Source: an uncultured Faecalicoccus sp. (GTDB lineage Bacteria; Bacillota_I; Bacilli_A; Erysipelotrichales; Erysipelotrichaceae). Taken from it: a stretch of 36,099 nucleotides of DNA. The notes beneath the pieces were generated by a model that was not told where the DNA came from, made no database searches, and worked only from the letters and a program-made list of their open reading frames with translations. Location of the stretch: contig NZ_CALVGO010000010.1 in NCBI RefSeq assembly GCF_944327125.1, forward strand, positions 1-36,099, given 5' to 3'. Position numbers and translations under genes: made by a program. This document shows positions 13,863 to 35,171 of this stretch, piece by piece; positions within the stretch are counted from its first letter, which is position 1, and each line of letters starts with the position of its first letter.

Positions 13863-14766
13863 GTTGATCGAACGCTTTCTGCAGTATGTCTATCATCAGC
13901 ATTCGCAATCGGAAAAAACGATGGATGCATATCGTCGAGATCTAAACCAGCTGCGTGATTTTCTACAGGCTCAGGGCATCGATGATTTTGAAAAAGTGGA
14001 TCGTCTGACTTTTCTGGACTTTTTAAAAAACTGCCGCCAGCTAAAGGATGGTTCTCTGGCCAAAAATTCGACGATCGCAAGAAAGTTAAGTACATACCGT
14101 TCTTTTTATCGTTATCTAAATGAATATATCGGTATCCAGAACAATCCGATGGTTTCTATACACGCTCCCAAAAACAATCGTAAGATCCCAGATTTCTTAT
14201 TTGTCTCAGAGATTCGAACGTTTTTGGATTCGTACGATCTTTCCAAACCCGCTTCTATCCGGGATCGTATGATATTTACTTTGATGTATGCCTGTGGTTT
14301 GCGTTTGAGTGAAACCGTCAATCTATGCTGGGAAGACGTCCATCTTCAGGAACGCTTTTTACTCATCAAAGGGAAAGGCAGCAAAGAAAGGTTGGTTCCT
14401 TTTTATGCGGCGCTGATTCAGGCGTTTCAGGAATACCGTTTGCGGTATTGGGAAAAATATGCCCGTTCAACCGATGCGGTCTTTGTTTCGCTTCGTGGCA
14501 ATCCGATGACGCCGCGTTCGATCCAGTACTTGATGCAAAAACATGCCGATGAGATCGGTATGCATATGAACGTACATCCGCATATGCTTCGCCACAGCTT
14601 TGCGACCCATCTTCTGGATAATGGGGCCGATATCCGTATCGTGCAGGAGCTGTTGGGCCATTCCAGTCTGTCGACCACACAGATCTATACGCACTTGTCA
14701 TCCGGAAAACTTTTAAAAGAATATCAAAAAGCGCATCCTTTGGCCAATCAGGGCATAAAAAGGTAA
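13855..14766 (+). CDS. xerC: Tyrosine recombinase XerC
   Basis: This site-specific recombinase resolves chromosome dimers. The N-terminal SAM-like core-binding domain spans about 1-95. The catalytic domain has the complete R-K-H-R-H-Y set: Arg150 (ACGLRLSE), Lys174 (KGKGSKERL), His243 and Arg246 ([10 protein letters not shown]), His269 (LGHSSL) and Tyr278 (IYTHLS). At 303 aa it is a standard Xer protein. Position after trmFO matches codV/xerC of Bacillus; the clpQ-clpY-codY genes that follow there are not present here. The start ATG 13855 lies within the end of trmFO with GGAG upstream, so it is probably translated by coupling. Confidence 0.94.
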
Positions 14767-14774
14767 AAAGTCCA

Positions 14775-14803
14775 TTGAAATCGGGTCTTTGACATGGTAT
14801 TAT
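14775..14803 (+). promoter_or_regulatory. Promoter for rpsB-tsf
   Basis: TTGAAA at 14775-14780 is 17 bases before TATTAT at 14798-14803, with a TG dinucleotide one base upstream (extended -10). Hexamers and spacing equal those of the rplS promoter at 6909-6937. Transcription should begin near 14810. Confidence 0.68.
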
Positions 14804-14809
14804 GAACAA

Positions 14810-14890
14810 GCGTGAAAGCGCAAATACACACATCATGGATTCGGGTGCCCGTGCATTTTAAGTGTTGCACTCGTTCGAAATGATGGAGGA
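14810..14890 (+). promoter_or_regulatory. Structured 5' leader of rpsB
   Basis: About 100 bases separate the predicted start of transcription from rpsB. A small GNRA-type hairpin forms first (GCGT 14810-14813, GAAA loop, GCGC 14818-14821). A longer arm follows: CATCAT 14831-14836 with ATGATG 14880-14885, TTCG 14840-14843 with CGAA 14876-14879, and GTGCA 14851-14855 with TGCAC 14866-14870. The nested pairing suggests a protein-binding leader, perhaps for S2 itself. This function is inferred, not recognised from a named family. Confidence 0.5.
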
Positions 14891-14912
14891 GTAACGGAAA
14901 GGAAGGACTATT

Positions 14913-15836
14913 ATGTCAATTGTATCAATGAAGAAATTGTTAGAGAATGGTGTACATTTCGGACATCAGACTCGCCGCTGGAATCCAAAGATGAAACCTT
15001 ACATCTATACCAGCCGTAACGGGGTTTATATCGTAGATTTAAACCAGACGATCGAACAGATCGAAGATGCTTATGCAGAATTGAAAGCAATCAGTGAACG
15101 CGGAGGAAAAGTACTTTTTGTAGGTACAAAAAAACAAGCTGCGGAAATCGTAGAAGAACAGGCATTACGTTCAGGTTCTTTCTATGTCAACAAACGTTGG
15201 CTGGGCGGACTTTTAACGAACTTCCGTACGATCCAGAAACGTGTTAAACGTTTGGTTGAGATCGAAGAGATGGAAGCCAGCGGAAAAATTGAAGTCTATA
15301 CGAAAAAAGAACAAGCCAACCTGCGCAAGGAAAAGGCAAAACTGGAAAGCAGCTTAGGCGGAATCAAAGAAATGAAGAAACTGCCGGATGCTGTGATCAT
15401 TGTGGATCCAAAAGAAGAACACAATGCCGTAGCAGAAGCCAAAAAATTAGGTATTCCTGTATTTGCGATGCTGGATACAAACTGTGATCCAGAAGATGCA
15501 ACCTATCCAATTGCTTCTAACGATGATGCGGCTCGTTCTATCAAATTGGTGCTGACGATCTTGGCCGATGCCATCGTAGATGCCAAGGGCGGCGTTCTTG
15601 AACTGGCTTTCTTGGACAATACAGAAGAAGATGTAACGATGGATGACGTAATCAAAAACGTTGAACAGCAGATTGCGGAAAACGAAAGAAGACGTCGTCA
15701 GCGTATCGAAGAAAAACGTAAGAGAAACTTCGAACGCCGTAACCGTCGTTTCAACAAACCAGCTCAAAAAGAAGAAGCAAAACCAGAAACAAAAGAAGAA
15801 GCTCCTGCAGAGGAAACAACTTCAGAAGCTGAATAA
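14913..15836 (+). CDS. rpsB: 30S ribosomal protein S2 with charged C-terminal extension
   Basis: S2 binds the 30S head-body junction and is needed for S1 and mRNA positioning. The core is typical: SMKKLLENGVHFGHQTRRWNP, YIYTSRNGVYIVDL, VNKRWLGGLLTNF and PDAVIIVDPKEEHNAVAEA. The core ends near residue 230. It is followed by about 75 extra residues rich in Glu, Lys and Arg (ENERRRRQRIEEKRKRNFER, later ending in acidic repeats). At 307 aa it is clearly longer than the roughly 240-250 aa of Bacillus S2. AGGAAGG at 14900-14906 precedes ATG 14913. It forms an operon with tsf, as nearly everywhere in bacteria. Confidence 0.97.
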   Translation: MSIVSMKKLLENGVHFGHQTRRWNPKMKPYIYTSRNGVYIVDLNQTIEQIEDAYAELKAISERGGKVLFVGTKKQAAEIVEEQALRSGSFYVNKRWLGGLLTNFRTIQKRVKRLVEIEEMEASGKIEVYTKKEQANLRKEKAKLESSLGGIKEMKKLPDAVIIVDPKEEHNAVAEAKKLGIPVFAMLDTNCDPEDATYPIASNDDAARSIKLVLTILADAIVDAKGGVLELAFLDNTEEDVTMDDVIKNVEQQIAENERRRRQRIEEKRKRNFERRNRRFNKPAQKEEAKPETKEEAPAEETTSEAE

Positions 15837-15863: not shown

Positions 15864-16754
15864 ATGGCTATTACCGCAAGTCAAGTAAAAGAATTACGTG
15901 AAAAAACCGGTGCCGGAATGATGGACTGTAAAAAAGCCCTGACAGAATGCGATGGAGATATCGCAAAAGCTGTTGACTGGCTCCGTGAAAAGGGAATCGC
16001 AAAAGCAGAGAAGAAAGCCGGACGTATCGCCGCTGAAGGTCTGACACGTGTCGCAAGCCAGGGTAATGATGCGGTGATCTTCGAAGTAAACTCGGAAACA
16101 GACTTCGTTGCCAAGAACGAACAGTTCCTGCACGTATTGGATGTTCTTCAGGCTGCACTTTTAGAGGCAAAACCTGCCACTTTGGAAGATGCTTTAAAAG
16201 TGAACACAGCGGAAGGAAGCGTAGAAGATGTGATCACAAACGCAACGGCTACGATTGGAGAAAAAATTTCTTTCCGTCGTGTCAATGTCATCACAAAACA
16301 GGATGATGAAGTATTCGGTACATACATGCATATGGGTGGAAAGATCTCCAGCGTTGTTGTATTGAAGGGAACACAGGATGCACAGATCGCAAAAAATATT
16401 GCGATGCAGGTAGCTTCTATGTCTCCAGCTTATGTAAGCCAGGATGAAATTCCGTCAGAAGTGGTTGAACACGAACGTGAATTGCAGTTACAGATGATGC
16501 AGAACGATCCAAAAATGGCAAACAAACCTGAAAATGTACTTCAGGGAATCTTGAAAGGGAAAGTCGACAAACACTTTAAAGATCTTTGCTTAAATGATCA
16601 GGAATACTTCCTGGAACCTAAACAGAAAGTTGGACAGTTCCTGAAAGAAAACGGATGCAGCGCAGTTTGCTTCGTTCGCTACCAGACAGGTGAAGGTATC
16701 GAAAAACGTGAAGAAAACTTCGCAGAAGAAGTTATGTCACAAATCAAGGGGTAA
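15864..16754 (+). CDS. tsf: Translation elongation factor Ts
   Basis: EF-Ts exchanges GDP for GTP on EF-Tu. The N-terminal UBA-like module with SQVKELREKTGAGMMDCKKA (5-24) is the family signature. It is followed by NSETDFVAKNEQF, the EF-Tu contact region, and two core subdomains. Length is 296 aa, normal. AAAGGAG at 15850-15856 sits before ATG 15864, and 27 bases separate it from rpsB. The stop codon TAA lies within the stem of the following terminator. In many Bacillota pyrH comes next; here 14 kb of amino-acid genes intervene. Confidence 0.98.
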   Translation: MAITASQVKELREKTGAGMMDCKKALTECDGDIAKAVDWLREKGIAKAEKKAGRIAAEGLTRVASQGNDAVIFEVNSETDFVAKNEQFLHVLDVLQAALLEAKPATLEDALKVNTAEGSVEDVITNATATIGEKISFRRVNVITKQDDEVFGTYMHMGGKISSVVVLKGTQDAQIAKNIAMQVASMSPAYVSQDEIPSEVVEHERELQLQMMQNDPKMANKPENVLQGILKGKVDKHFKDLCLNDQEYFLEPKQKVGQFLKENGCSAVCFVRYQTGEGIEKREENFAEEVMSQIKG

Positions 16755-16841: not shown

Positions 16842-16847
16842 GGACCC

Positions 16848-17066
16848 ATAGTGATGAAGGGAAGGAGTACAGAACCTCTTTTTTCTAGAGAATTGGCGGA
16901 TGGTGCAAGCCATAAAAAATGTTCTGGAACGTGTCCTGGAGCTTCTATGTCGAAATCTTATGAGGCATAGACGCAATTCTGCGTTATCGATGAGGGTCAT
17001 TTACAATGTAAATGGAATTAAGGTGGTACCGCGTGTTCAACGTCCTTTTTTAAGGACGTTTTTTTT
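16848..17066 (+). promoter_or_regulatory. T-box leader, arginine-specific, with terminator
   Basis: The leader senses uncharged tRNA and lets transcription through when arginine is short. In Stem I, AGGA 16863-16866 pairs with TCCT 16934-16937, and CAGAAC 16870-16875 pairs with GTTCTG 16921-16926. This leaves a specifier loop whose 3' side is GAACGTG (16927-16933); the codon CGT (16930-16932, Arg) is followed by the expected purine. The distal loop has TGGTGCAAGCC. The T-box core AAGGTGGTACCGCG is at 17020-17033, with TGGT 17024-17027 pairing to the tRNA end. The terminator is AACGTCCTT 17039-17047 with AAGGACGTT 17052-17060 and a T-tract to 17066. The arginine genes downstream fit the CGU reading. 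Confidence 0.92.
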
Positions 17067-17124: not shown

Positions 17125-17151
17125 AAAATAAAAAAATGGAGGAGAATGGAC

Positions 17152-18390
17152 ATGGAAAAGAAAACATATAAAAAAATCGTATTGGCATATTCAGGCGGGT
17201 TGGATACCTCGGTATTGATTCCCTGGCTGAAAGAAAACTATGGTGCTGAGATCATTGCGGTCAGCGGCAATGTAGGACAGGGAACCGAATTGGATGGTCT
17301 GGAAGAAAAAGCACTGAAAACAGGAGCTTCCAAACTCTATATTGAAGATCTGACCGAGGAATTTGTAAACGATTATATCATTCCTACCATGCAGGCAGGA
17401 GCAAGCTATGAACAATATCTGTTAGGAACGAGCTTTGCCCGTCCTATTATTGCCAAAAGAATCGTAGAGATTGCCAAAAAGGAAGGTGCGGATGCGATTT
17501 GTCATGGCTGTACAGGAAAGGGAAACGATCAGGTTCGTTTTGAACTGGCGATTCAGGCTTTTGCACCGGAAATCGATATCATTGCCCCTTGGCGATTCTG
17601 GGAACTCAATTCCAGAGAAAAGGAAATTGCTTATGCCGAGAAACATCATATTCCTTTAAAAATCAACAAAGAAACCAACTATTCCAAAGATAAGAATTTA
17701 TGGCATCTCAGCCATGAAGGACTGGATCTTGAAGACCCTGCCAATGAAGCGCCGATTAATAAACCTGGCTTCTTAGAAATGAGTGTGTCTCCGGAAAATG
17801 CACCGGATGCTCCTACGATGGTCAAGATTACATTTGAAAAAGGGGTACCGGTCAAAGTCGATGATGTTACGATGACACCGACACAGGTTATTGAAAAGTT
17901 GAATGAATTAGGCGGTGCCAATGGCTGCGGGATCTTGGACATTGTGGAGAACCGTCTGGTAGGAATGAAAAGCCGTGGCGTGTATGAGACCCCGGGTGGT
18001 ACGGTCTTATATAAGGCGCATGAAAAATTAGAAGAAATCACATTGGATAAGGAAACGCAGCACTTTAAACAGTCGCTGGCCTTGAAGTTTGCCGATCTTG
18101 TTTATAACGGACAATGGTACACCCCATTAAGAAAGGCGATGAGTGCATTTGTGACCAGCACTCAGGAAACGGTCACGGGCGACGTTGTCTTAAAGCTGTA
18201 TAAAGGAAATATTCTTCCTGTTTCTGTAACCAGTCCATATTCTTTGTATAGTGCCGGAATGGCGACATTTGATGAAGATGACTGTTACGATCAAAGTGAT
18301 TCTGCCGGTTTTATCCACTTATTTGGTCTTCCTTTAAAAGTGAGAGCCATCAAGGCCAAAGAAGTGGAAAATTTTCCAGGAGTCGAATAA
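17152..18390 (+). CDS. argG: Argininosuccinate synthase
   Basis: ArgG joins citrulline and aspartate with ATP hydrolysis to AMP, the penultimate step to arginine. The N-type ATP pyrophosphatase loop AYSGGLDTS (12-20) is present. Further family motifs include [20 protein letters not shown] and KGVPVKVDD, and the ring-closing C-terminus [16 protein letters not shown]. Length is 412 aa. Two ATG codons are possible (17146 and 17152). GGAGG at 17138-17142 is only three bases from the first but nine from the second, so I chose 17152. The stop overlaps argH by one base (TAATG). It is the first full gene behind the arginine T-box. Confidence 0.97.
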
Positions 18391-19784
18391 TGGCAAAACT
18401 ATGGACAGGCAGATTTTCAAAAGAAACCGATGTTCTTCTGGATCAGCTCAATGCGTCGCTTCCTTTTGACTCTCGCCTTTATGCTCAGGATATCCAGGGA
18501 TCACTGGCCCATGCCAAAATGTTGGCAAGACAAAAAATCATTTCCAATGACGATCTTTTGAAAATCGAGAACGGATTGAAATCCATTCTGAACGATATCG
18601 AACAGGGAAAACTGGTTATGGAAGGGGCCGAAGATATTCATTCGTTTGTGGAACAGGAACTGACCCGGCGAATCGGAGATCCAGGCAAAAAGCTGCATAC
18701 AGCACGTTCTCGTAACGATCAGGTAGCTGTGGATCTTCGACTGTACACAAAGGAAAATGTCAAGATCATTCAGAAATTGATCGGGAGTCTGATTCAAACG
18801 CTTTGTGAAAGCGCAAAAATGCATACGGAAACGATCATGCCCGGCTATACCCATCTTCAAAGAGCACAGCCGGTAACACTGGCCCACGTTTGGATGGCCT
18901 ACGGCAATATGTTTCACAGAGATTATAAGCGCTTTGAAAATGCATACGATCGGATGAATGAAATGCCTTTAGGATCGGGAGCCCTGGCTGGCACGACCTA
19001 TCCGATCGACCGGTATTTTACGTGCCGTGAATTGGGCTTTGAAAAACCTTGTGACAATTCTATCGATGGCGTCAGTGATCGGGATTATTGTTTAGAGATC
19101 GGCAGTGCTTCTTCCATTTTGATGATGCATCTATCAAGGATGTGTGAAGAAATGATACTCTGGTGTTCTTTTGAATTTGGCTTTATGGAACTGGATGATG
19201 CCTTTTCGACGGGTTCCAGTATTATGCCACAGAAAAAGAACCCGGATGTCTGTGAACTTATCCGCGGGAAAACAGGCCGCGTTTATGGGGATTTGCTCAC
19301 CCTTTTCACGATGCAGAAGGGATTGTGTCTAGCCTACAACAAAGACATGCAGGAAGATAAGGAAGCATTTTTTGATCTTCTCGACACCGTGATCCATTCC
19401 CTGCAGGTGATGATTCCCATGCTTCAAACAGCCAAATTTTATAAAGAAAATATGCATCAGGCAGCTTTGGGAGGCTATATCAACGCGACCGATTGTGCAG
19501 ATTATCTGACAAGAAAAGGAATGCCGTTCCGGGATGCCTATAAGATCACCGGGGAAATGGTCAGCTACGCCATTGATCGGAAAAAGTCGCTGAACGATTT
19601 GGATCTGGACGAATTCCACCGTTTTTCTTCTTTATTTGAAGAAGATATCTATCAAGCCTTAGACTTGATCACGTGTGTAACCAAACGAAACAGTTTGGGA
19701 GGACCCAGTCCAGACGAAGTAAAACGACAGATCCAAAATTTGGAATTGTTTTTGAAAGAGTGTGAGATTCATGAATCGATCTAA
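18390..19784 (+). CDS. argH: Argininosuccinate lyase
   Basis: ArgH splits argininosuccinate into arginine and fumarate. The fumarase/aspartase superfamily loop GSSIMPQKKNPD (about 275-286) with its catalytic serine is intact. So are HTARSRNDQVAVDLRL (103-118) and TIMPGYTHLQRAQPVTLAHV, which holds the general-acid histidine (His155). Length is 464 aa, normal. The ATG overlaps the argG stop, and argC begins inside its last codons, so translation of argG-H-C is probably linked. No missing active-site residue was noticed. Confidence 0.97.
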   Translation: MAKLWTGRFSKETDVLLDQLNASLPFDSRLYAQDIQGSLAHAKMLARQKIISNDDLLKIENGLKSILNDIEQGKLVMEGAEDIHSFVEQELTRRIGDPGKKLHTARSRNDQVAVDLRLYTKENVKIIQKLIGSLIQTLCESAKMHTETIMPGYTHLQRAQPVTLAHVWMAYGNMFHRDYKRFENAYDRMNEMPLGSGALAGTTYPIDRYFTCRELGFEKPCDNSIDGVSDRDYCLEIGSASSILMMHLSRMCEEMILWCSFEFGFMELDDAFSTGSSIMPQKKNPDVCELIRGKTGRVYGDLLTLFTMQKGLCLAYNKDMQEDKEAFFDLLDTVIHSLQVMIPMLQTAKFYKENMHQAALGGYINATDCADYLTRKGMPFRDAYKITGEMVSYAIDRKKSLNDLDLDEFHRFSSLFEEDIYQALDLITCVTKRNSLGGPSPDEVKRQIQNLELFLKECEIHESI

Positions 19785-20676
19785 AATCTATATCGATGGC
19801 CAGTATGGAACGACAGGTTTGGAAATATTCGACCGGTTAAAACAGCGGGATGACATTGAATTGTTGATCATTCCCGAACATAAGCGCCATGATCATTTCA
19901 TTCGTCAGGAATGTATGGCACAAGCGGATTTGATCTTTTTATGCCTACCGGATTCGGCCAGCATAGAAGCGATGAACTGGATTCCGGACAATACAAAAGT
20001 AATTGATGCTTCTACAGCGCACCGAACAAAAGAGGGATGGGATTATGGTTTTCCTGAACTCTCGCCTCCACATAAAGAGGCCATTGCTTCCAGTTATCGT
20101 GTTGCCAATCCAGGCTGTCATGCCACCGGTTTTATCAGCGTTGTGTATCCTTTGGTTCAAAAGGGGATCGTATCCTCTTCTTCTTTGATCCGCTGTACTT
20201 CTTTGACTGGATATTCCGGCGGCGGAAAAAAGATGATCGAAGAATACCAGACGCATAAAACCGAACTTTTACAGGCGCCTCGTTTGTATGGCTTGTCCTT
20301 GGAACATAAGCATTTAAAAGAAATGAAACAGATCTGTCATTTAAACAGAGAACCTTTGTTTGTACCCATCGTTAATGATTATTACCGCGGTATGCTGACA
20401 AGTGTGATGCTTGAAGGAAACGCCAGAGAGATTTACTCCTTCTATCAATCTTTTTATCCTCAGGATACTGTGCGTGTCCTGTTCCAGGATGAAGGCTATC
20501 TTTCGGCAAATTCCATGAAAGATAAGGATACACTTGAAATTGTTGTCAGCGGCAATGACCGTCAGGTTCTTGTCAGCGCTGTGTTCGACAATCTTGGAAA
20601 AGGGGCCTGCGGGGCCGCGATCCAGAATATGAATCTTATGTTAGGAATCCAGGAAACAAAGGGCTTACGGTTATAA
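19771..20676 (+). CDS. argC: N-acetyl-gamma-glutamyl-phosphate reductase, type 2
   Basis: ArgC reduces N-acetylglutamyl phosphate to the semialdehyde with NADPH. The N-terminus KIYIDGQYGTTGLEIFDRL is the type 2 form (IDGxxGTTG) rather than the GASGYxGxEL of the common type 1. The catalytic cysteine is Cys116 in VANPGCHATGF. At 301 aa it also has the shorter length of the type 2 group. GTG 19762 is in frame upstream, but ATG 19771, with a GTGAG-like site ahead, fits the family better. It overlaps the argH end by 14 bases. Confidence 0.93.
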   Translation: MNRSKIYIDGQYGTTGLEIFDRLKQRDDIELLIIPEHKRHDHFIRQECMAQADLIFLCLPDSASIEAMNWIPDNTKVIDASTAHRTKEGWDYGFPELSPPHKEAIASSYRVANPGCHATGFISVVYPLVQKGIVSSSSLIRCTSLTGYSGGGKKMIEEYQTHKTELLQAPRLYGLSLEHKHLKEMKQICHLNREPLFVPIVNDYYRGMLTSVMLEGNAREIYSFYQSFYPQDTVRVLFQDEGYLSANSMKDKDTLEIVVSGNDRQVLVSAVFDNLGKGACGAAIQNMNLMLGIQETKGLRL

Positions 20677-20695
20677 GGAAGGATAGGAAGAGTTT

Positions 20696-21904
20696 ATGAA
20701 ACAAATTCAGGGAGGTGTGTGTGCTGCCAAAGGTTTTTTGGCAGGAGGCGCACATTGCGGAATTCGAAAATCACAGGATAAACTGGACTTGGCCGTTATC
20801 TATTCTCAGGTCCAATGTCAGGCTGCTTGCGTCTATACATCCAACCGGGTAAAGGCGGACTGTCTGAAAGTGACAAAAGAACATTTGAAAAACGGGGTTG
20901 CACAGGCTATCGTCTGTAATTCAGGCAATGCCAATGCCTGTGCTCCCGATGGCTTTCAAAATGCGATCCGTCAGGCCAGGGCGTGTGCGCATTATTTAGG
21001 CATTGATGAACAAGATGTGATTGTCAGCAGTACCGGTGTTATTGGGCAAAGACTGCCGGTAGAGTGCATTGAAGAACATATTGATCAGGTCGCTTTGAAA
21101 GAGAATGGTTCCAAAGAAGCTTCGATTGCGATCATGACCACGGACACACGCCCTAAAAGCTATGCCGTTTCTTTTGAAATTGAAGGAACTGAGTGTCATA
21201 TTGGCGGGATCTGTAAGGGATCTGGAATGATCCATCCCAATATGGGAACGATGCTGGCGTTCATCACCAGTGATGTTCAGATAGAACAATCTTTACTGGA
21301 AGAGGCTCTCAAAGAGATCACCCGGAAAACTTTTAATCGTATCAGCGTGGATGGGGATACTTCTACCAATGATATGTGTGCTCTTCTTTGTAATGGGATG
21401 GCGAATCATTCCAAAATCGATCAAAAGAATGAATCGTATGCAATCTTTAAGAACGCCCTTCATACGGTGATGGAGAATCTTGCGATCCAGATTGCCAAAG
21501 ATGGAGAAGGAGCCAGCCGATTGCTGACGGTAAGCGTCACACATGCAGAAAGTGAGCTTCAGGCGGAGAAACTGGCCATGTCCGTGGCATCCAGCACTTT
21601 GTTTAAAGCGGCTATGTTTGGAAGCGATGCCAACTGGGGACGTATTCTTTGTGCCATGGGGTATGCCGGCGTTGATTTTGATATTGATAAAGTCAATGTT
21701 AGCTTCGAATCTGTCAAAGGTCGAATCGAAGTCTGTAAGAAAGGAAAGGCATTGTCCTTTGATGAGGAGCAGGCCAAACAAATTTTATCCAATGATGAGG
21801 TGCGGGTCTGGATCGATCTGGATTCAGGCCCAAAGAGCGTCACCTGCTGGGGATGCGATCTGACTTATGAATATGTAAAGATCAATGGAGATTATCGAAC
21901 ATGA
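20696..21904 (+). CDS. argJ: Glutamate N-acetyltransferase/ornithine acetyltransferase
   Basis: ArgJ moves the acetyl group from acetylornithine back to glutamate, so the cycle needs little acetyl-CoA; many homologues can also use acetyl-CoA. The precursor cleaves itself before a threonine nucleophile, here Thr185 in GMIHPNMGTMLAFITSD, where the usual ATML is GTML. The oxyanion-hole segment SSTGVIGQRLP (about 111-121) and the C-terminal FGSDANWGRILCAMGYAG are intact. Length is 402 aa. It starts 20 bases after argC with a GGAAG-type site, and its stop overlaps argB (ATGA). No separate argA or argE is in the window, consistent with recycling through ArgJ. Confidence 0.96.
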   Translation: MKQIQGGVCAAKGFLAGGAHCGIRKSQDKLDLAVIYSQVQCQAACVYTSNRVKADCLKVTKEHLKNGVAQAIVCNSGNANACAPDGFQNAIRQARACAHYLGIDEQDVIVSSTGVIGQRLPVECIEEHIDQVALKENGSKEASIAIMTTDTRPKSYAVSFEIEGTECHIGGICKGSGMIHPNMGTMLAFITSDVQIEQSLLEEALKEITRKTFNRISVDGDTSTNDMCALLCNGMANHSKIDQKNESYAIFKNALHTVMENLAIQIAKDGEGASRLLTVSVTHAESELQAEKLAMSVASSTLFKAAMFGSDANWGRILCAMGYAGVDFDIDKVNVSFESVKGRIEVCKKGKALSFDEEQAKQILSNDEVRVWIDLDSGPKSVTCWGCDLTYEYVKINGDYRT

Positions 21905-22761
21905 ACCCAAATGAAACCGCAAAAATATTAGTAGAGGCATTGCCTTACATTCAAAAATACCGAGGCAAAACCATTGTGATCAAATATGGCGGGAATGCCA
22001 TGGTCAATGAAGAACTCAAACAAGCCGTGATCCAGGATGTTGTCTTGTTGAATATGGTCGGGGTCCATGTGGTTCTAGTTCATGGCGGCGGTCCGGAGAT
22101 TTCCAGTTTACTGGAAAAAGTAGGGAAGGAATCCAGGTTTATTAACGGGCTTCGCTATACCGATCAGGAGACGATGGAATTTGTTCAGATGGCCCTTTGT
22201 GGAAAAGTGAATAAAGATCTTGTGTCCCTATTGGAAAAACAAGGTGGAAAAGCTGTCGGTCTTTCCGGCCTGGATGGTTCGATCTTCCAGGCGCTTCGAC
22301 ATACGGACATATACCGCACCGATTATGGATATGTCGGCGATATCATCAAGGTCGATTGTACTCTGGTCCAGGAACTTTTAGAAAAAGGATATATCCCAGT
22401 GATCAGCAGTGTTGCCAAAGGATACGATGAAGATGTCAGCTATAATGTGAATGCCGATCTGGCGGCGGAAAAGATCGCCATCGGATTAAAGGCAGAGAAG
22501 TTTATCTTATTGACCAATGTCAGCGGCGTTTTGGAAGATCCAGGCGATCCCGATTCATTGATTCCGTCCATCCAGGTTTCCCGGGTCGGTTCTTTAGAGA
22601 AAAAGGGGATCATCTCTGGAGGCATGATTCCTAAAGTTCAATGCTGTGTAGAAGCAATACGACAAGGTATTCGATCGGCCAATATTCAAGATGGACGGAT
22701 CCCGCACTCTATCCTGATCGAACTTTTGAGTGATCAGGGCGTGGGGACGGTCTTTTATTAG
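21901..22761 (+). CDS. argB: Acetylglutamate kinase
   Basis: ArgB phosphorylates N-acetylglutamate, usually the feedback-controlled step. The amino-acid-kinase fold is plain: IVIKYGGNAMVNEELK (about 24-39), VLVHGGGPEISSLLEKVG, NVNADLAAEKIAIGLKA and the C-terminal GGMIPKVQCCVEAIRQG. Length is 286 aa. An N-terminal helix before the kinase core (ETAKILVEALPYIQKYRGKT) resembles that of hexameric, arginine-inhibited forms, so feedback inhibition is plausible but inferred. The ATG overlaps the argJ stop, and argD follows after 14 bases with its own AAAGGAAG site. Confidence 0.96.
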   Translation: MNPNETAKILVEALPYIQKYRGKTIVIKYGGNAMVNEELKQAVIQDVVLLNMVGVHVVLVHGGGPEISSLLEKVGKESRFINGLRYTDQETMEFVQMALCGKVNKDLVSLLEKQGGKAVGLSGLDGSIFQALRHTDIYRTDYGYVGDIIKVDCTLVQELLEKGYIPVISSVAKGYDEDVSYNVNADLAAEKIAIGLKAEKFILLTNVSGVLEDPGDPDSLIPSIQVSRVGSLEKKGIISGGMIPKVQCCVEAIRQGIRSANIQDGRIPHSILIELLSDQGVGTVFY

Positions 22762-22775
22762 AAAGGAAGAAGCCT

Positions 22776-23957
22776 ATGAATTTTTCAGAAATCAAATCCC
22801 TGGAATCCAAGGTTGTGATGCAGACCTACAGTCGCGAAGATGTTCTTTTGACACATGGAGAAGGGTGTTATCTTTTTGATGATCAGGATCGGAAATATCT
22901 GGATCTGACATCAGGGATCGGTGTAAATTGTCTGGGACATAATCATCCTGTTCTTGTCAATGCCTTGCAGGACCAGGTTTCAAAACTGATGCATTGTTCC
23001 AATATTTTCTACAACGAACCCATGGTGTTGGCTGCCAAACATCTGGTTGAATCCACCGGGATGTCCCGTATGTTTTTTGCCAATACCGGCGCAGAAGCCA
23101 ATGAAGGAATGATCAAGCTGGCGCGAAAATATTCATCGGATCGCTATGGAAAGCATCGTTTTAAGATCTTGAGCCTGGTGCAATCGTTTCATGGGCGAAC
23201 CATGATGACGCTGACCGCCACTGGCCAGGATAAATTTCACCAGTATTTTTATCCTTTCCCGGAAGGGTTTGATTATGTGATTGCCAACGATATCGAATCA
23301 TTTAAAGAGAAGCTGGATGAGACTGTATGCTGTGTCGTGATGGAAATGATTCAGGGAGAAGGCGGTGTTCTTCCGCTTGAAAAAGAATTTGTCCAGGAGG
23401 CTGTACGTCTTTGTCAGGAAAAAGATGTCCTGGTCGCAATTGATGAAGTTCAGACCGGGATCGGAAGAACGGGTTCCTTGTTTTGTTACGAGCAATATGA
23501 CATTGAACCAGATATCGTGACCATGGCCAAAGGCCTGGGCGGCGGTGTAGTCATTGGTGGATTTCTGGTCAATAAAAAATGTGCCGATGTCTTGATTCCA
23601 GGTACGCATGGTTCAACTTTTGGTGGAAATCCATTAAGTACAAGAGCAGCGGTTACGGTTTTGGATATTGTGGATCAGCCGGAATTCCTACAATCCGTCA
23701 AGGAAAAAGGGGATTATTTTATGAAGGGGCTTCGTTCGATTTCTTCGAGAAATATCAAAGTGGTTCGAGGAAAGGGGCTGATGATCGGAGTCATTGTCGA
23801 TCCTGACAAACGAGCTTCTTATATTCGTCAGTTACGAGAACACGGTGTGCTGGCACTGACGGCCGGTAAAGATGCGATCCGTCTTCTGCCGCCGCTGATC
23901 ATTACTAAGCAGGAAATCGATATTGCCGTAGAGGCTTTTAGGGAGGTGTTTTCATGA
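22776..23957 (+). CDS. argD: Acetylornithine aminotransferase
   Basis: ArgD converts N-acetylglutamate semialdehyde to N-acetylornithine with glutamate. It is a class III PLP aminotransferase with FANTGAEANEGMIKLARKY (cofactor phosphate site) and SFHGRTMMTLTATGQ. AIDEVQTGIGRTG holds the PLP-contacting aspartate, and TMAKGLGGG supplies the Schiff-base lysine near residue 250. Length is 393 aa. The 3' end overlaps argF (ATGA). In Escherichia coli the same enzyme also makes succinyl-DAP, so this copy may serve the neighbouring lysine pathway, which lacks an aminotransferase gene in this window. Confidence 0.94.
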   Translation: MNFSEIKSLESKVVMQTYSREDVLLTHGEGCYLFDDQDRKYLDLTSGIGVNCLGHNHPVLVNALQDQVSKLMHCSNIFYNEPMVLAAKHLVESTGMSRMFFANTGAEANEGMIKLARKYSSDRYGKHRFKILSLVQSFHGRTMMTLTATGQDKFHQYFYPFPEGFDYVIANDIESFKEKLDETVCCVVMEMIQGEGGVLPLEKEFVQEAVRLCQEKDVLVAIDEVQTGIGRTGSLFCYEQYDIEPDIVTMAKGLGGGVVIGGFLVNKKCADVLIPGTHGSTFGGNPLSTRAAVTVLDIVDQPEFLQSVKEKGDYFMKGLRSISSRNIKVVRGKGLMIGVIVDPDKRASYIRQLREHGVLALTAGKDAIRLLPPLIITKQEIDIAVEAFREVFS

Positions 23958-24862
23958 AACATTTACTAAAGATGCAAGATCTGACCAGGGAAAAACTTCT
24001 GGAGATCCTGGACCTGGCGGATCAGTTGAAATACGAAAGAAAACATAACATTCCACATCGCTATCTGGAAGGAAAAAGCGTGGGGCTGATTTTTCAAAAA
24101 TCAAGCACTCGTACCCGCGTCTCTTTTGAAACCGGTGTTTATCAAATGGGAGGCCAGGCTCTGTTTTTATCCAGTAAGGACCTGCAAATTGGGCGAGGAG
24201 AACCCATCCAGGATACAGCCCGGGTCTTATCCCGCTATTTGGATATGATCATGATTCGGACCTTTGATCAAAAAGAAGTGGAAGATCTGGCTTATTATGG
24301 TTCGATTCCTGTTATTAACGGATTGACTGATTATTGCCATCCTTGCCAGGTACTGGCGGATCTGATGACCATTCGTGAACATTATTCGTATCTGGAAGGG
24401 CTGAAGATGTGTTATATTGGAGATGGCGATAATATGGCTAATTCTTTGATCGTCGGCGGCCTTTTGGCGGGCATGCAGGTATCTGTCGCAACACCAGAAG
24501 GTTATGAACCGGATGATACAGTCCTGGATTTTGCGAAAGACTATCCTTGTTTTTCTTTAACGACCGATCCCAAACAAGCAATTCGGGATGCCGATGTAGT
24601 GATCACGGATACCTGGGCAAGCATGGGAATGGAAGAAGAAAAAGAGATTCGCCAGAAAGCTTTCCAGGGATATACTGTGGATGACGATTTGATGTCTTTG
24701 GCAAAACCGAAAGCGATGGTTCAACACTGCCTTCCCGCTTACCGGGGACAGGAGATCACGGACAAAGTGTTTGAAGATCATGCCGATGAGATCTTTGAGG
24801 AAGCCGAAAATCGCCTGCATGTTCAAAAAGCCGTTATGGTTTTATTGGTGAAAGGGGAATAG
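23954..24862 (+). CDS. argF: Ornithine carbamoyltransferase
   Basis: ArgF makes citrulline from ornithine and carbamoyl phosphate. The carbamoyl-phosphate loop SSTRTRVSFE (50-59) is present. DYCHPCQVLADLMTIREH and the ornithine-binding motif TDTWASMGMEEE follow, and HCLPAYRG provides the C-terminal catalytic cysteine. Length is 302 aa. Anabolic and catabolic versions share these motifs; the argCJBD context points to biosynthesis. No carAB genes for carbamoyl phosphate are in the window. The small cupin gene starts one base after its stop codon. Confidence 0.95.
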   Translation: MKHLLKMQDLTREKLLEILDLADQLKYERKHNIPHRYLEGKSVGLIFQKSSTRTRVSFETGVYQMGGQALFLSSKDLQIGRGEPIQDTARVLSRYLDMIMIRTFDQKEVEDLAYYGSIPVINGLTDYCHPCQVLADLMTIREHYSYLEGLKMCYIGDGDNMANSLIVGGLLAGMQVSVATPEGYEPDDTVLDFAKDYPCFSLTTDPKQAIRDADVVITDTWASMGMEEEKEIRQKAFQGYTVDDDLMSLAKPKAMVQHCLPAYRGQEITDKVFEDHADEIFEEAENRLHVQKAVMVLLVKGE

Positions 24863-24863
24863 T

Positions 24864-25202
24864 ATGCGTATAGAAGATCGAAACAATGTACAAAACGGAA
24901 AGGGAACGGTCCATTTTGAATATATTTTAACCGCTGAAGAGATGCATGGATACAACACGTTATATGCACGAATCACATTGAAACCGGGATGCTCGGTGGG
25001 TTATCATGTTCATCAAGGAAACGGAGAAGATTATTTCATTCTTTCCGGGCATCCTACCATTAATGATAATAATGAAAGAGAAGTGGTTCTTCATCCGGGA
25101 GAACATTTGTTCTGTCCGGATGGCCGCGGTCATTCCATTATCAACAACACCAGTGAGGATGTCGTGTTCATGGCTTTGATCGTTACATCGCCTAAAGTAT
25201 AA
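24864..25202 (+). CDS. Small single-domain cupin protein
   Basis: This 112-residue protein is a single beta-barrel cupin. Motif 1 is GCSVGYHVHQGNGEDYFILSG, giving metal ligands His48, His50 and Glu55. Motif 2 is HPGEHLFCPDGRGHSIINN, giving His90. No catalytic partner domain, signal peptide or membrane segment is present, so it could be a small metal-dependent enzyme, a sugar or amino-acid binding module, or a sensor. It begins one base after argF, with AAAGGGGAA upstream, and ends in the operon terminator, so it should be co-expressed with the arginine genes under the T-box. I know of no standard arginine step for it. Confidence 0.82.
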   Translation: MRIEDRNNVQNGKGTVHFEYILTAEEMHGYNTLYARITLKPGCSVGYHVHQGNGEDYFILSGHPTINDNNEREVVLHPGEHLFCPDGRGHSIINNTSEDVVFMALIVTSPKV

Positions 25203-25228
25203 AAGCATCGATCAGTCGATGCTTTTAT
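25199..25228. terminator. Bidirectional terminator between cupin and M20 genes
   Basis: A perfect 13-bp inverted repeat (25199-25211 with 25216-25228, loop TCAG) has a run of four A on one side and four T on the other. It would end the arginine operon on the + strand and the deacetylase transcript on the - strand. Both stop codons lie in or at the hairpin. Confidence 0.75.
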
Positions 25229-26309
25229 AATGTTCTAGAATTTGAATATAGTTTTGAACACCGGTTTCCAGTATGCTTTCGTCAAAGTCAAAATGGTCGT
25301 TATGCAAAGGGATCCCGGTTCCGGTTCCCAGAAAAAAGAATACACCAGGGACATACTGCTGGTACCAGCTGAAATCTTCGGTGATCATCTCATGATGTTT
25401 TAAAAGAACGATATCCGGTAAGAAAGTCAACAGTTCCTGGACCAGGGCTTCATCGTTTGTCACTGGAGGATAGCCTTCGTTGATATCAAAGGTAAATGTA
25501 CCTTCATATTTTTTAGCTGTCGTTTTCAAAAGCTCGATCAGCTGATCATAAACGGGATCGCTCAGTGCCCGTAATGTTCCTTCCAAGCGTGTGTGGTCGC
25601 TGACGACATTGCGGATCTCTCCACTATCCATTTTTCCAAATCGCAAAAGATAAGGAACATGCGTTGGGATCTGTTTTAACCGGGAATAGATTTCCGTTAA
25701 ATAGGCGGCGCCGATTTCCAGGGCGTCGATTCCTTCCGTATAGCTGGCCGCATGACTTTTTTTGCCGTGGATGTCAATGTTTACTTCACTGCTTCGAGCC
25801 ATCATGGGACCCGGTTTTGTCGCAATCACACCTTTTGACAGATTCGGCCATAGATGGGTTCCGTAGATCTGGGTAACGTGGAATGTATCCAAAAAGCCGG
25901 TTTCACACAATAGTTTGGCTCCTCCAGGCGATTCCTCACCAGGCTGAAAGATCAAAAGGACATTCACATCCAGTTTTGAATAGTTGTCCTTTAAGTAGTC
26001 GGCCAATCCTAATGCCATGGCCATATGTCCATCGTGACCGCAGGCGTGCATGATCCCTTGGTGCTTGCTTTTGAAGGGACAGTCTGTTTTTTCTTCGACC
26101 GGCAAGGCGTCCATATCACTGCGAAAGGCAATGGTTTTTTCTTTATGATTATCAAAAAAGGCAAGAACACTGGAGCCAATAGGACTGTATAACTGACAAG
26201 GCATATCTTTTAGTACGTTAAGCAGATAAGCCTGTGTTTGGGGAAGTTCGAGCTCCAGTTCTGGAATTTGATGCAAGTCTTGCCGATATGTACGTAATTT
26301 ATCTAACAT
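25212..26309 (-). CDS. M20-family amidohydrolase, probable N-acetyl-diaminopimelate deacetylase
   Basis: This is a 365-residue metallopeptidase-fold amidohydrolase. Metal-binding motifs are FRSDMDALPVEE (about 62-73), HACGHDGHMA (88-97, with the Cys and His typical of the M20D group), FQPGEESPGGA and a late histidine. Members of this group remove acyl groups from amino acids: hippurate, N-acetyl-amino acids, or N-acetyl-LL-DAP in YkuR/DapL. Because it diverges from a lysine operon that uses the N-acetyl route (dapH), the deacetylase role (EC 3.5.1.47) is the best guess. It is the only minus-strand gene here and lies outside the lysine riboswitch. Its ribosome binding site is weak. Confidence 0.78.
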   Translation of the reverse strand: MLDKLRTYRQDLHQIPELELELPQTQAYLLNVLKDMPCQLYSPIGSSVLAFFDNHKEKTIAFRSDMDALPVEEKTDCPFKSKHQGIMHACGHDGHMAMALGLADYLKDNYSKLDVNVLLIFQPGEESPGGAKLLCETGFLDTFHVTQIYGTHLWPNLSKGVIATKPGPMMARSSEVNIDIHGKKSHAASYTEGIDALEIGAAYLTEIYSRLKQIPTHVPYLLRFGKMDSGEIRNVVSDHTRLEGTLRALSDPVYDQLIELLKTTAKKYEGTFTFDINEGYPPVTNDEALVQELLTFLPDIVLLKHHEMITEDFSWYQQYVPGVFFFLGTGTGIPLHNDHFDFDESILETGVQNYIQILEHYKSID

Positions 26310-26349
26310 GTCTTTATTTTACATAAAAATGAAAAATATTACAAAAGAA

Positions 26350-26378
26350 TTTACATTATCTTACATTTTATGTATAAT
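26350..26378 (+). promoter_or_regulatory. Promoter of the lysine operon
   Basis: TTTACA 26350-26355 and a perfect TATAAT 26373-26378 are 17 bases apart. The sequence between and beyond forms an imperfect palindrome: ACATTA 26353-26358 with TAATGT 26375-26380, and TACAT 26362-26366 with ATGTA 26370-26374. Transcription would begin at about 26385, at the 5' edge of the riboswitch. Confidence 0.72.
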
Positions 26379-26386
26379 GTTTCCAA
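26358..26386 (-). promoter_or_regulatory. Candidate minus-strand promoter for the M20 deacetylase
   Basis: On the minus strand, TTGGAA (26386-26381) is 17 bases before TAAGAT (26363-26358). It overlaps the plus-strand lysA promoter almost completely, so the two polymerases would compete for one site. Confidence 0.5.
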
Positions 26387-26581
26387 GATAGAGGCGCAAA
26401 AAAGAAGAAGACAAGGGGAGCTGGCAAGTTTGGATCCTTGTCGGAGGCGATTTTGCCGAACTGCTCTTTTTGGCAAAAAAGAGTGGTGGGCCGATAAAAA
26501 ATATTTATCGGACTGTCTACATTTGTAGGAGGGCTATCAAATGGGTGAATCACCGGCAAGAGATGGCTTGCTGGTTTTTTT
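26387..26581 (+). promoter_or_regulatory. Lysine riboswitch (L box) with terminator
   Basis: The leader shows the conserved L-box order: AGATAGAGGCGC at the 5' end, then GGGAGCTGGC, CGGAGGCGATTTTGCCGAA, GGTGGGCCGATAA, CGGACTGTCTAC and GTAGGAGGGCTAT near 26538. An intrinsic terminator follows: CCGGCAAG 26553-26560 with CTTGCTGG 26567-26574 and a T-tract to 26581. Lysine binding should stabilise the terminator and stop transcription of lysA and the dap genes. The riboswitch ends three bases before the lysA ribosome binding site. Confidence 0.94.
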
Positions 26582-26596
26582 GTTAGGAGGGATCGT

Positions 26597-27862
26597 ATGA
26601 AAAAGGTCTTGGAAATCGGAGGTGTTCCTGTGACTCGTCTGGCACAGAAGTATGGAACCCCGCTGTACATCTATGATGAAAACCAACTGCGAAATCAATG
26701 TCAAAAATATAAACAGAATTTTTTAGATGATGTGTTTTCAACCGAGGTCTTATACGCTTCCAAAGCATTCAGCTGTATTGGAATGTTGAAACTGATCAAG
26801 GAAGAAGGCCTTTCTGTGGATGTTGTATCGTTAGGAGAGCTTGCCACGGCCATACAGGCTGGAGTTTCTTGTTCACATATCTATTTTCACGGCAATAATA
26901 AAACGCCCGAAGAAATCCAGTATGCATTAGATCATGATGTCTGTCATTTTTTTGTTGATAATCAGCAGGAAGCCATGCTTTTAAAGACGATGGCTAAAAA
27001 TTCGAAAAAAACACTCTATGTGATGCTTCGCATCAATCCTTGTATTGAAGCGCATACCCATGAATATATTCAGACGGCCAATATTGATTCAAAATTTGGC
27101 ATCAGTCTCTATTTGGAAGAGGAAATCGTCAGGTTGATCAAAGAAATCCAATCCAGTCCGTTCATGATCTTTGAAGGGTTCCATTCGCATATTGGTTCCC
27201 AGATCTTTGAAAAAGAAGCCTTTGAAAAAGAGATCGAGACCATGTTTAGCTTTATCGCCAGGATGGAAGAAAGAGGAATCTCTTGTTCCAAACTGGATCT
27301 TGGTGGAGGGTTTGCAATCCATTATACCGATCATGACCAGCCCATTCCTGTCGAACAAATCTGTAAGGTCATTTTATCGGCCTGCCGTCACCAGCAGATT
27401 CTACATAAAACACACGTGGATACGATCTTGATCGAACCGGGAAGAAGCATAGCCGGAGAGGCCGGCTCTACGTTATATACGATCGGTTTCTCAAAGACGA
27501 CCCCTCATAAACGGTATCTTTTTGTGGATGGAGGAATGAGTGATAATATTCGCCCTTGTCTTTATCAGGCACAGTATGATGCCGATGTAGCCACCAATAT
27601 GGAAGCTGTAAAGGACCAGGAAGTCTGCGTGGCCGGTAAGTGCTGTGAATCTGGAGATATATTGATTCCAAACATCAAACTGCAGGCTTTTGATTCCAAC
27701 GATCTCTTGATCGTCTATTCAACCGGAGCCTATGGTTTCAGTATGTTCAATAACTATAACCGCAATCTTCGCCCGGCTGTTGTCTTTGTCAAGGATGGAA
27801 AGTCTTCTTTGGTGGTCAAAAGAGAAACGATCGAAGATCTGCTGAAGGGGGATGTCCGATGA
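26597..27862 (+). CDS. lysA: Diaminopimelate decarboxylase
   Basis: LysA decarboxylates meso-DAP to lysine. It is a fold III PLP enzyme: the cofactor lysine is Lys56 in VLYASKAFSC. The substrate and cofactor segments HSHIGSQI, LDLGGGFAIHY and IEPGRSI follow, then CCESGDIL, whose cysteine completes the partner subunit's active site. Length is 421 aa, normal. AGGAGG at 26585-26590 precedes ATG 26597, directly behind the lysine riboswitch. Its stop overlaps dapF (ATGA). Placing lysA first means that the step that drains DAP is made together with the steps that supply it. Confidence 0.96.
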   Translation: MKKVLEIGGVPVTRLAQKYGTPLYIYDENQLRNQCQKYKQNFLDDVFSTEVLYASKAFSCIGMLKLIKEEGLSVDVVSLGELATAIQAGVSCSHIYFHGNNKTPEEIQYALDHDVCHFFVDNQQEAMLLKTMAKNSKKTLYVMLRINPCIEAHTHEYIQTANIDSKFGISLYLEEEIVRLIKEIQSSPFMIFEGFHSHIGSQIFEKEAFEKEIETMFSFIARMEERGISCSKLDLGGGFAIHYTDHDQPIPVEQICKVILSACRHQQILHKTHVDTILIEPGRSIAGEAGSTLYTIGFSKTTPHKRYLFVDGGMSDNIRPCLYQAQYDADVATNMEAVKDQEVCVAGKCCESGDILIPNIKLQAFDSNDLLIVYSTGAYGFSMFNNYNRNLRPAVVFVKDGKSSLVVKRETIEDLLKGDVR

Positions 27863-28680
27863 AAATCGCATTTCGAAAATACCACGGCTGTGGAAATGAT
27901 TTTATTCTGGTGAAGGATTCAGATCTTGAAAAGTCCCTGTTGCCCGAGCTGATCGTAAAGATCTGTGACCGGCATACCGGAGTGGGAGCGGACGGATTTA
28001 TTGTCGTAAAAACCGATCCTTTGGAAATGGTTTACTATAACCAGGATGGGTCCCGGGCTCCGATGTGCGGAAACGGCATTCGATGTTTTTCCCAGTTCTG
28101 TGTGGATGAAGGCATCGTACACCAAACGATGTTTCATGTCTCTACGCTGGCAGGGGACAAAGTGATCAAAATCAGTGAGCCGGGAATGTTTGAAGTGGAC
28201 ATGGGAAAACCCGATCTGGAGGATCTTTCTCTGGTGGGGACAAAAGAAAAGATCTGGGGGTATCCTTACCGTCTTAAAGGGGAAAGGCCTGTCTTCTTGT
28301 ATACGCTTTTCCAAAGCACGATCCATACGGTTGTCTTTGTAGAAGATCTAAAGATGGTCCATATGGAAGAAACAGGAAAACAAATCTGTGAGGACCCGCT
28401 TTTTGAAAAACAAACCAATGTCAATTTTGTGCAAGTGATAGATCCTGGACATCTTAGAATGCAGACCTATGAAAGGGGCTGCGGAATTACGCTGGCCTGT
28501 GGAACCGGTGCCTGTGCTGCGGTGTCCGTGGCTTATCGTTTGGGAAAGTGTGAAAAAGAGGTCAAGGTTTCATTGCCTAGAGGGCAATTGAAGATTCAAA
28601 TCGGCGATGAAGGCCAGGTCAAGATGACAGGACCGGCAAGATGTATCGCGAAAGGAGATTATATTTATGAAACCGATTAA
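27859..28680 (+). CDS. dapF: Diaminopimelate epimerase
   Basis: DapF turns LL-DAP into meso-DAP, used both for lysine and, in many species, for cell-wall cross-linking. It is a cofactor-independent two-cysteine racemase: Cys70 in RAPMCGNGIRCF and Cys214 in CGITLACGTGACAA are both present. The opening FRKYHGCGNDFILV is the family signature. Length is 273 aa. The ATG overlaps the lysA stop, and dapA starts inside its last five codons. Presence of meso-DAP synthesis does not by itself prove a DAP-type peptidoglycan. Confidence 0.95.
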   Translation: MKIAFRKYHGCGNDFILVKDSDLEKSLLPELIVKICDRHTGVGADGFIVVKTDPLEMVYYNQDGSRAPMCGNGIRCFSQFCVDEGIVHQTMFHVSTLAGDKVIKISEPGMFEVDMGKPDLEDLSLVGTKEKIWGYPYRLKGERPVFLYTLFQSTIHTVVFVEDLKMVHMEETGKQICEDPLFEKQTNVNFVQVIDPGHLRMQTYERGCGITLACGTGACAAVSVAYRLGKCEKEVKVSLPRGQLKIQIGDEGQVKMTGPARCIAKGDYIYETD

Positions 28681-29548
28681 AGGAAGTATTGTAGCGATGG
28701 TAACGCCATTTCATGAAGATGGCAGCGTCAACTTTGAAAAGTTGGAAGAAATGATTGAATTCCAAATTGAGAATTCGACCGATGGGATCCTTGTATTGGG
28801 AACAACCGGAGAGAGTACGACCATGACGCACGAGGAAGATGACCAGGTTGCTCGTTTTGCCATTGATAAAGTCCATGGACGAGTTCCTGTTATTGTAGGG
28901 GCCGGCTCCAACAGTACACAAACACAGCTGGAAAAGAGTATCAAATATGCCGATATGGGAGCGGATGCCTTGCTTTTGATCTCGCCTTACTACAACAAAG
29001 CCAATACCCAGGGAATGATCTCCCATTTCAGTGTTTGTGCCGATCAGGCAAAATGTCCCGTCATTTTATACAATATCCCGGGACGTACCGGTTGTTCGAT
29101 CAGCGAGGAAGTCGTAAAAACATTATCGAAACATCCTAACATTTGCGGAATCAAGGAAGCCAGTGGAAATATTTCTTATGCCACCAGCATTGCTCGTTAT
29201 CTCAGTGATGATTTTGCGATGTACTCTGGAATCGATGATATGATCACCAGTATGCTTTCCATTGGTGCCAGCGGTGTGATCAGTGTTATGAGTAACATCC
29301 TTCCTGGGCAAACGCATGAGATAGTTGCTTCCTTTCATCAGGGTGATGTTCAAAGATCCCTGGATCTTCAGCTGCAATATCTTGATGTGATCCATGCGCT
29401 TTTCTGTGAGGTCAATCCGATTCCGGTCAAAGCGGCAATGAACTTGATGGGTATGGATGTCGGCGGCTATCGACTTCCGCTGTGTGAAATGGATCCTAAA
29501 AATCATGCCTTGTTGAAACAGGCATTACAGGAGCAGGGACTATGCTGA
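28667..29548 (+). CDS. dapA: 4-hydroxy-tetrahydrodipicolinate synthase
   Basis: DapA condenses pyruvate with aspartate semialdehyde, the first committed step to lysine. It is a TIM-barrel class I aldolase: GSIVAMVTPF at the N-terminus, LVLGTTGESTTMTHEE, the catalytic tyrosine in ILYNIPGRTG, and the Schiff-base lysine in CGIKEASGN. Length is 293 aa, typical. ATG 28667 has AAAGGAG at 28651-28657 and overlaps dapF; the stop overlaps dapB by seven bases. Lysine feedback may also act on the protein in addition to the riboswitch, but this cannot be read from sequence. Confidence 0.96.
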   Translation: MKPIKGSIVAMVTPFHEDGSVNFEKLEEMIEFQIENSTDGILVLGTTGESTTMTHEEDDQVARFAIDKVHGRVPVIVGAGSNSTQTQLEKSIKYADMGADALLLISPYYNKANTQGMISHFSVCADQAKCPVILYNIPGRTGCSISEEVVKTLSKHPNICGIKEASGNISYATSIARYLSDDFAMYSGIDDMITSMLSIGASGVISVMSNILPGQTHEIVASFHQGDVQRSLDLQLQYLDVIHALFCEVNPIPVKAAMNLMGMDVGGYRLPLCEMDPKNHALLKQALQEQGLC

Positions 29549-30246
29549 TTGGTATTGTAGGAAAAGGGAAGATGGGCCGTTTGATCGAATCGACTGCCCT
29601 TTCCAAGGGAATTGAAGTTGCCGGATGTTTTGATATCTACGATCATGATCAACTCAGACAAAATGTCGATGTTTTGGTTGACTTTAGTCATCGGGACAAT
29701 TTGGAATGGATCGTGGAATATACAAGATCGCATCGAAACGCACTGGTTTATGGAACCACGGGTCTAAGTGAACAGGATCTGCAGATGTTAAAGTCGCTTT
29801 CCAAAGAAGTTCCCGTGTTCTATTCGGCCAATTATTCCTTAGGGATCGCCGTGTTAAAATCGGTTCTTGAAAAGGTAACTCCTCTTTTAGAGGACGATTT
29901 TGATATAGAGATTCTGGAAAAACATCACAATCAAAAAAAAGATGCTCCCAGCGGAACGGCTTTATCCCTCTTGGAAGCTGTGGACCCGCAGGATCAGTAT
30001 GAACATGTCTTTGGCCGCCAGGGGATGACAGGGGCCAGAAAAAAAGAGATTGGAGTTCATGCCTTGCGAGGGGGAACGATTGCGGGAGAACACACAGTTT
30101 ATTTTTGCGGGCCGGATGAGATTCTCAGTTTTTCCCATGAGGCCTTGAGCCGCCAGATCTTTGTCAATGGGGCACTGAAGGCGGTTTTATTTCTAGAAGA
30201 AAAACCAGCCGGTTTTTATACGATGAAAGAATTGATTGGAGAATAA
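29542..30246 (+). CDS. dapB: 4-hydroxy-tetrahydrodipicolinate reductase
   Basis: DapB reduces the DapA product to tetrahydrodipicolinate with NAD(P)H. The nucleotide-binding [12 protein letters not shown] begins at residue 4. [17 protein letters not shown] is the catalytic His/Lys motif and [12 protein letters not shown] follows. At 234 aa it is shorter than the E. coli protein (273 aa), as a compact form common in Bacillota. The loop after the first strand ([12 protein letters not shown]) is shortened, which suggests cofactor preference may differ, but this is inferred. It starts within the last codons of dapA; dapH follows after a one-base gap. Confidence 0.93.
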
Positions 30247-30247
30247 T

Positions 30248-35120: not shown

Positions 35121-35171
35121 CCATATGGTATTTTTCTTAAGCGACCAAACCAAGAAAGGAATACCATATGG
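35121..35171 (+). promoter_or_regulatory. Hairpin covering the transposase ribosome binding site and start codon
   Basis: CCATATGGTATT 35121-35132 pairs perfectly with AATACCATATGG 35160-35171. After a two-base bulge (GG) the stem continues with TTTCTT 35133-35138 and AAGAAA 35152-35157, 18 bp in all with a 13-base loop. The ribosome binding site AAAGGA (35155-35160) and the ATG (35168-35170) both lie in the 3' arm. Transcripts entering from outside would fold and hide the start site. Confidence 0.65.

Follow-up and report, generated by a model that had tools for sequence, protein, structure and literature searches.

Layout of the region upstream of rpsB

The analysed window, a stretch of 36,099 nucleotides from an uncultured Faecalicoccus sp. 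(NZ_CALVGO010000010.1, positions 1 to 36,099), carries the genes for ribosomal protein S2 (rpsB) and elongation factor EF-Ts (tsf). A leader of about 100 nt follows a predicted promoter and is itself followed by rpsB and tsf. The features, all on the forward (+) strand, are:

14775 to 14803 (+): predicted sigma-70-like promoter from a consensus scan, TTGAAA, 17-nt spacer, TATTAT, with TG ahead of the second hexamer
14810 to 14821 (+): 5′-terminal hairpin GCGU-GAAA-GCGC from the minimum free energy (MFE) fold, kept as a hairpin and not as a sequence
14825 to 14830 (+): single strand UACACA, a conserved stretch that E. coli shares
14831 to 14885 (+): helix P1, 6 bp (14831-14836 with 14880-14885), supported by pairing and double changes in the family
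14837 to 14841 (+): 5′ side of the internal loop, GGAUU, conserved, facing UUCGAA (14874-14879)
14842 to 14873 (+): helix P2, 7 bp (14842-14848 with 14867-14873), double compensatory changes at 7 of 7 pairs
14849 to 14852 (+): bulge CCGU, putative 5′ strand of a pseudoknot, invariant in 87 of 87 parsed leaders, at the position of Meyer's J2-3
14853 to 14865 (+): helix P3 (14853-14856 with 14862-14865) with a G-U closing pair, double changes at 3 of 4 pairs
14886 to 14889 (+): GAGG box (GGAGG when the final P1 base is counted), GAGG in 84 of 87 leaders and also in E. coli
14894 to 14897 (+): ACGG, putative 3′ strand of the pseudoknot, 15 nt ahead of the start codon, invariant in 87 of 87 parsed leaders
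14901 to 14907 (+): Shine-Dalgarno-like GGAAGGA, read from the sequence
14913 to 15836 (+): rpsB open reading frame, encoding an S2 of 307 aa whose C-terminal tail is charged
15864 to 16754 (+): tsf open reading frame (EF-Ts), second gene of the operon

The promoter consensus scan places the predicted transcription start near 14809, and a start downstream of 14850, which a preliminary description of this DNA had named as something that would count against the leader, is therefore unsupported. A TG-extended -10-like hexamer was found 5′ of the 5′ hairpin in 76/87 family leaders; this count comes from automatic assignments by a script that favours TG, and some of them look wrong (e.g. L005, L050, L073 and L088).

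The GAAA-capped hairpin and the interrupted arm with three nested helices noted in the preliminary description are present in the sequence, and the hairpin with the P1-P2-P3 arm is the MFE fold of the window sequence. The element does lie at 14810-14890 as had been proposed, an extent that is slightly short because the GAGG box and ACGG occupy 14886-14897. The folding energy was ordinary both for 14809-14890 (z -1.00; 25 of 200 shuffles folded as well) and for 14809-14915 (z -0.16; 80 of 200 shuffles). Single-sequence folding energy, not being significant against shuffles, was dropped as support for the leader, and the question was settled by comparison instead.

A search of 14600-15000 for terminator-like sites gave none, and the sequence from P1 to the rpsB start codon lacks a U run. 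Transcription attenuation is common among Bacillota leaders and could in principle take the place of translational repression here, but the lack of a terminator-like site and of a U run makes it very improbable at this locus. Control of translation is favoured, given that 14600-15000 holds no terminator.

At Rfam gathering scores, the only matches in the window were a T-box leader (RF00230, 139.4 bits, 16845-17050) before argG and a lysine riboswitch (RF00168, 90 bits, 26381-26544) before a lysA-like gene. Arginine and lysine/diaminopimelate genes, named by eye from their open reading frames, occupy 17146-30925 between tsf and pyrH-frr-uppS-cdsA. Two further members of the genus, L282 and L283, share the tsf-argG order, L282 with a transposase-like open reading frame between the two genes. 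Another transposase-like open reading frame (35168-36097) runs off the end of the window.

Conservation and covariation in the Erysipelotrichaceae

S2 was located in 88 of the 95 family genomes and in all four genus genomes searched; the seven family genomes with no S2 match stand outside the leader counts. Two of these seven (G019 and G057) are rated 98-99% complete, which looks like a gap in data or index and not like loss of rpsB. The 88 family genomes with S2 and one extra member of the genus gave 89 family upstream regions. All 89 kept a tail of the GGAGG...AACGG type, and the full leader could be parsed in 87. The two that did not parse were one cut at a contig end (L080) and one with the loop AGATT in place of GGATT (L085), which still scored 85.5 bits with the covariance model R1 described below.

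P1 paired in 87/87 parsed leaders at pairs 1-5 and in 85/87 at pair 6, with double changes at five of the six pairs. Each position of P2 was paired in 70-78 of the 87 leaders, against shuffled means of 38-68. For the covariation analysis, the 65 parsed family leaders (out of 87) that have a short P3 were aligned with plain MAFFT. In this alignment 95.9% of cells over the whole structure were paired and 15 of 21 pairs showed double compensatory changes. The covariation score was 0.571, compared with 0.191 ± 0.011 after shuffling and at most 0.162 with slid partners; sliding the partner by 1-3 columns abolished the covariation. RNAalifold, given no input structure, returned the same P1-P2-P3 fold minus the closing G-U pair of P3. 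The compensatory changes that the preliminary description had called for among relatives are thus present, far above both the shuffled and the slid controls, and an absence of such changes can no longer be held against the helices. A genuine RNA structure under strong conservation precedes rpsB.

We also considered mimicry of 16S h35-h37; the likeness, judged by eye, was confined to GAA and GG, since P1 varies, and no such mimicry is claimed.

The CCGU bulge and the ACGG strand are complementary over 4 bp, a pairing that some family members could lengthen to 5-6, and both were without variation in the 87 parsed leaders. With both strands constant, their pairing shows no covariation inside the family. 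ACGG lay 14-20 nt from the start of the S2 match in 72/87 family leaders and adjoins the Shine-Dalgarno sequence. The proposed pseudoknot draws on complementarity, invariance, comparison with E. coli and a published model.

The degree of conservation also bears on whether the leader could be a purely constitutive 5′ UTR, serving mRNA protection or aiding initiation with no feedback. The hairpin at the predicted start would fit such a role: its structure is retained in 82/87 family leaders, which fold there with z < -1.5 relative to mononucleotide shuffles, and 5′ hairpins stabilise Bacillota mRNAs. However, the unpaired CCGU, GGAUU, UUNGAA and GAGG, which vary hardly or not at all, exceed the needs of a protective hairpin, and the unpaired elements are partly common to the E. 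coli S2 operator. We regard a constitutive role as improbable.

S2 itself carries a charged C-terminal tail (ENERRRRQR..., encoded at 15590-15833). The tail, described earlier as unusual, is real, and it is a family trait, being present in the window and in all 30 family loci that were read. E. coli S2 is without it and has a leader, so such a leader does not need the tail, and the tail was ruled out as the leader's necessary partner.

Distribution across the class and relation to known leaders

The covariance model R1, built from the 65 family leaders only, had matches at E ≤ 0.001 in 85/247 class genomes; its E-values, like those of model R2, rest on shortened calibration. Among the 85 were 64 genomes outside the family; R1 gave no match in the other 162. 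S2 was located in 80 genomes, including all 64 extra-family genomes with an R1 match. Of the 65 extra-family matches, 64 sat 11-144 nt 5′ of the S2 match on the same strand. The stray one (G200:C7:20074-20139) lies away from rpsB, is missing from the R2 matches and was rejected. In thirteen of the 64 extra-family genomes, the S2 reading frame contains 2-6 TGA codons, which these genomes read as sense.

Model R2 was built from an alignment (A3) of 74 sequences that includes E. coli and some extra-family class genomes. It matched in 139/247 class genomes, leaving 108 with no match, and in 216/295 genomes of a phylum sample, where all genomes listed belong to the same class. A3 showed double changes at 17/17 nested pairs and a score of 0.897 against 0.242 after shuffling, in an alignment that had been fitted to the structure. 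An independent DNA pattern that required no base pairing found at least 117 stretches in the named genome collection. Among the pattern matches listed, 79 of 80 precede rpsB, and the eightieth runs off its contig first. The leader thus stands directly 5′ of rpsB in the window, in 64/65 extra-family R1 matches and in 79/80 pattern loci listed.

Outside the family, pseudoknot pairs beyond GU:AC were at chance (12/49 and 15/49, compared with 11.3 and 15.3 after shuffling), and only GU:AC counted in 37/48 extra-family rows. The tails of E. coli and L155 are too short in the alignment for this count, and L120 was dropped because its bulge was misplaced; by eye, its strands read CAUGU/ACAUG. The strands differ as pairs between CCGU/ACGG here and GGGGU/ACCCC in E. 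coli.

We compared the leader with the E. coli S2 leader through the Rfam family t44 (RF00127). Positions 1-95 of t44 aligned end to end with 14809-14895 at 17.9 bits, where the gathering score is 44 (E 0.49 over 4227 families in 501 bases; 0.15 in 151 bases). Over its cut-off t44 matched in 0/95 family genomes, and at E ≤ 0.001 in one (G049, 26.7 bits, just 5′ of its rpsB); it did match in the control genomes, E. coli and Thermotoga maritima. In the reverse direction, R1 matched the E. coli K-12 leader (L122:376-453) at 17.5 bits and E 0.008 in 94 kb, while its next matches in that search (14.8 and 12.6 bits) are probably random. This match is suggestive alone and convincing together with its position. 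The two leaders have in common ACACAC before P1, UGGAGG and UAAC after P1, and P3. In the bulge, GU is common to both, and a GUGC bulge is a further likeness to t44 and E. coli. On the other hand, the internal loop differs, the score falls below the t44 gathering score and the present genome has no bS1. Being below the t44 cut-off, the leader is filed under the rpsB motif and not under RF00127.

Other autogenous leaders of ribosomal protein genes in Bacillota include those of S4, S15, L20 and L10, whose ligands differ from S2. A table of 20 new leaders in Eckert & Weinberg 2020 (PMC7247131) has none with S2 as ligand in Firmicutes, and a 2024 review describes S2 control of rpsB-tsf as conserved 'at least across gamma-proteobacteria' (PMC10931766). 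The preliminary description knew of no described counterpart in Bacillota, which was wrong: Meyer et al. 2009 (PMC2704228) report an rpsB motif with a pseudoknot in Alpha- and Gammaproteobacteria, Cyanobacteria and 'some Firmicutes'. Stav et al. 2019 rediscovered the motif as a known RNA (PMC6429828), and in the literature searched the phrase 'rpsB motif' led to no second paper besides Meyer et al. 2009. As in that account of the motif (PMC2704228), the leader lies before rpsB and has a long arm with an internal loop and P3 as its cap; Meyer's P2 is absent, as given there for Firmicutes, and the bulge would pair with a 3′ extension after P1. The putative pseudoknot has 4 bp here, compared with three given for the Firmicutes motif (PMC2704228). 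The Firmicutes-type arm, with P3 and no or a short Meyer P2, is kept by compensatory change. Judged against the published description, the leader belongs to the already described rpsB-motif class and is not a new element.

Proposed control of rpsB-tsf translation by S2

The structure, conservation and position of the leader, together with its resemblance to the S2 leader of E. coli, are best explained if S2 in excess binds the leader and represses translation of rpsB-tsf, a reading to which we give a probability of roughly 80%. The identification of S2 as the probable ligand draws on the E. coli case, in which S2 represses rpsB-tsf via its leader (PMC10931766; PMC2704228), and on the position of the motif. 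The control element suggested in the preliminary description is thereby upheld as the best explanation, through the likeness to E. coli and the tie to rpsB, while its novelty in Bacillota is not.

A leader of the same class could instead answer to another effector, EF-Ts or the free 30S subunit. tsf lies close behind rpsB as the next gene in 70/70 genomes checked, and the GGAGG box and ACGG strand lie near the ribosome binding site, both of which would suit such an effector. Against this, it is S2 that acts as the repressor in E. coli (PMC10931766), and in the located cases rpsB, and not tsf, is the gene that the motif immediately precedes. With tsf behind rpsB wherever checked, gene order cannot separate S2 from EF-Ts as ligand and was set aside as uninformative. 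We consider an effector other than S2 unlikely.

In the model of repression by S2, the rpsB-tsf mRNA would begin near 14809, its first bases forming a small hairpin that perhaps protects the 5′ end. The RNA would then fold into P1-P2-P3, and the CCGU bulge would pair with ACGG just ahead of the Shine-Dalgarno sequence. S2 in excess over free 30S subunits would bind this fold and stabilise the pseudoknot beside the ribosome binding site. The pseudoknot, as the presumed occluding part, would lie within reach of the initiating 30S subunit and so block translation of rpsB, and this block would lower tsf expression too.

In E. coli, bS1 is reported as a needed companion for effective repression by S2 (PMC10931766). 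A search of the present genome with the rpsA model TIGR00717 gave 0 matches over the cut-off, and the S1 domain PF00575 was found in three open reading frames, with one match each. By reading, two of these are PNPase- and RNase R-like; the third is 556 aa long. The assembly is rated 100% complete, in 87 contigs, and by these profile searches the genome is without a bS1-type protein. Given the need for bS1 in E. coli, the mechanism here would have to differ in part.

A wider proposal, which we put forward tentatively and at slightly less than even odds, is that S1-independent autoregulation by S2, of common ancestry with the E. coli leader, extends through much of the Bacilli, including reduced TGA-reading genomes. 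Within the Erysipelotrichaceae it would be fixed in every genome tested, and the GC-rich pseudoknot, some 15 nt ahead of the start codon, would act as the switch. The results make an S2-type leader a near-universal part of rpsB-tsf in this gut Bacillota family, in which the t44 cut-off misses it in all 95 genomes searched, and a common one across the Bacilli, reduced TGA-reading genomes included. As its host has no bS1, the leader may offer a clean system for how S2 alone can repress, a question left open by the E. coli case.
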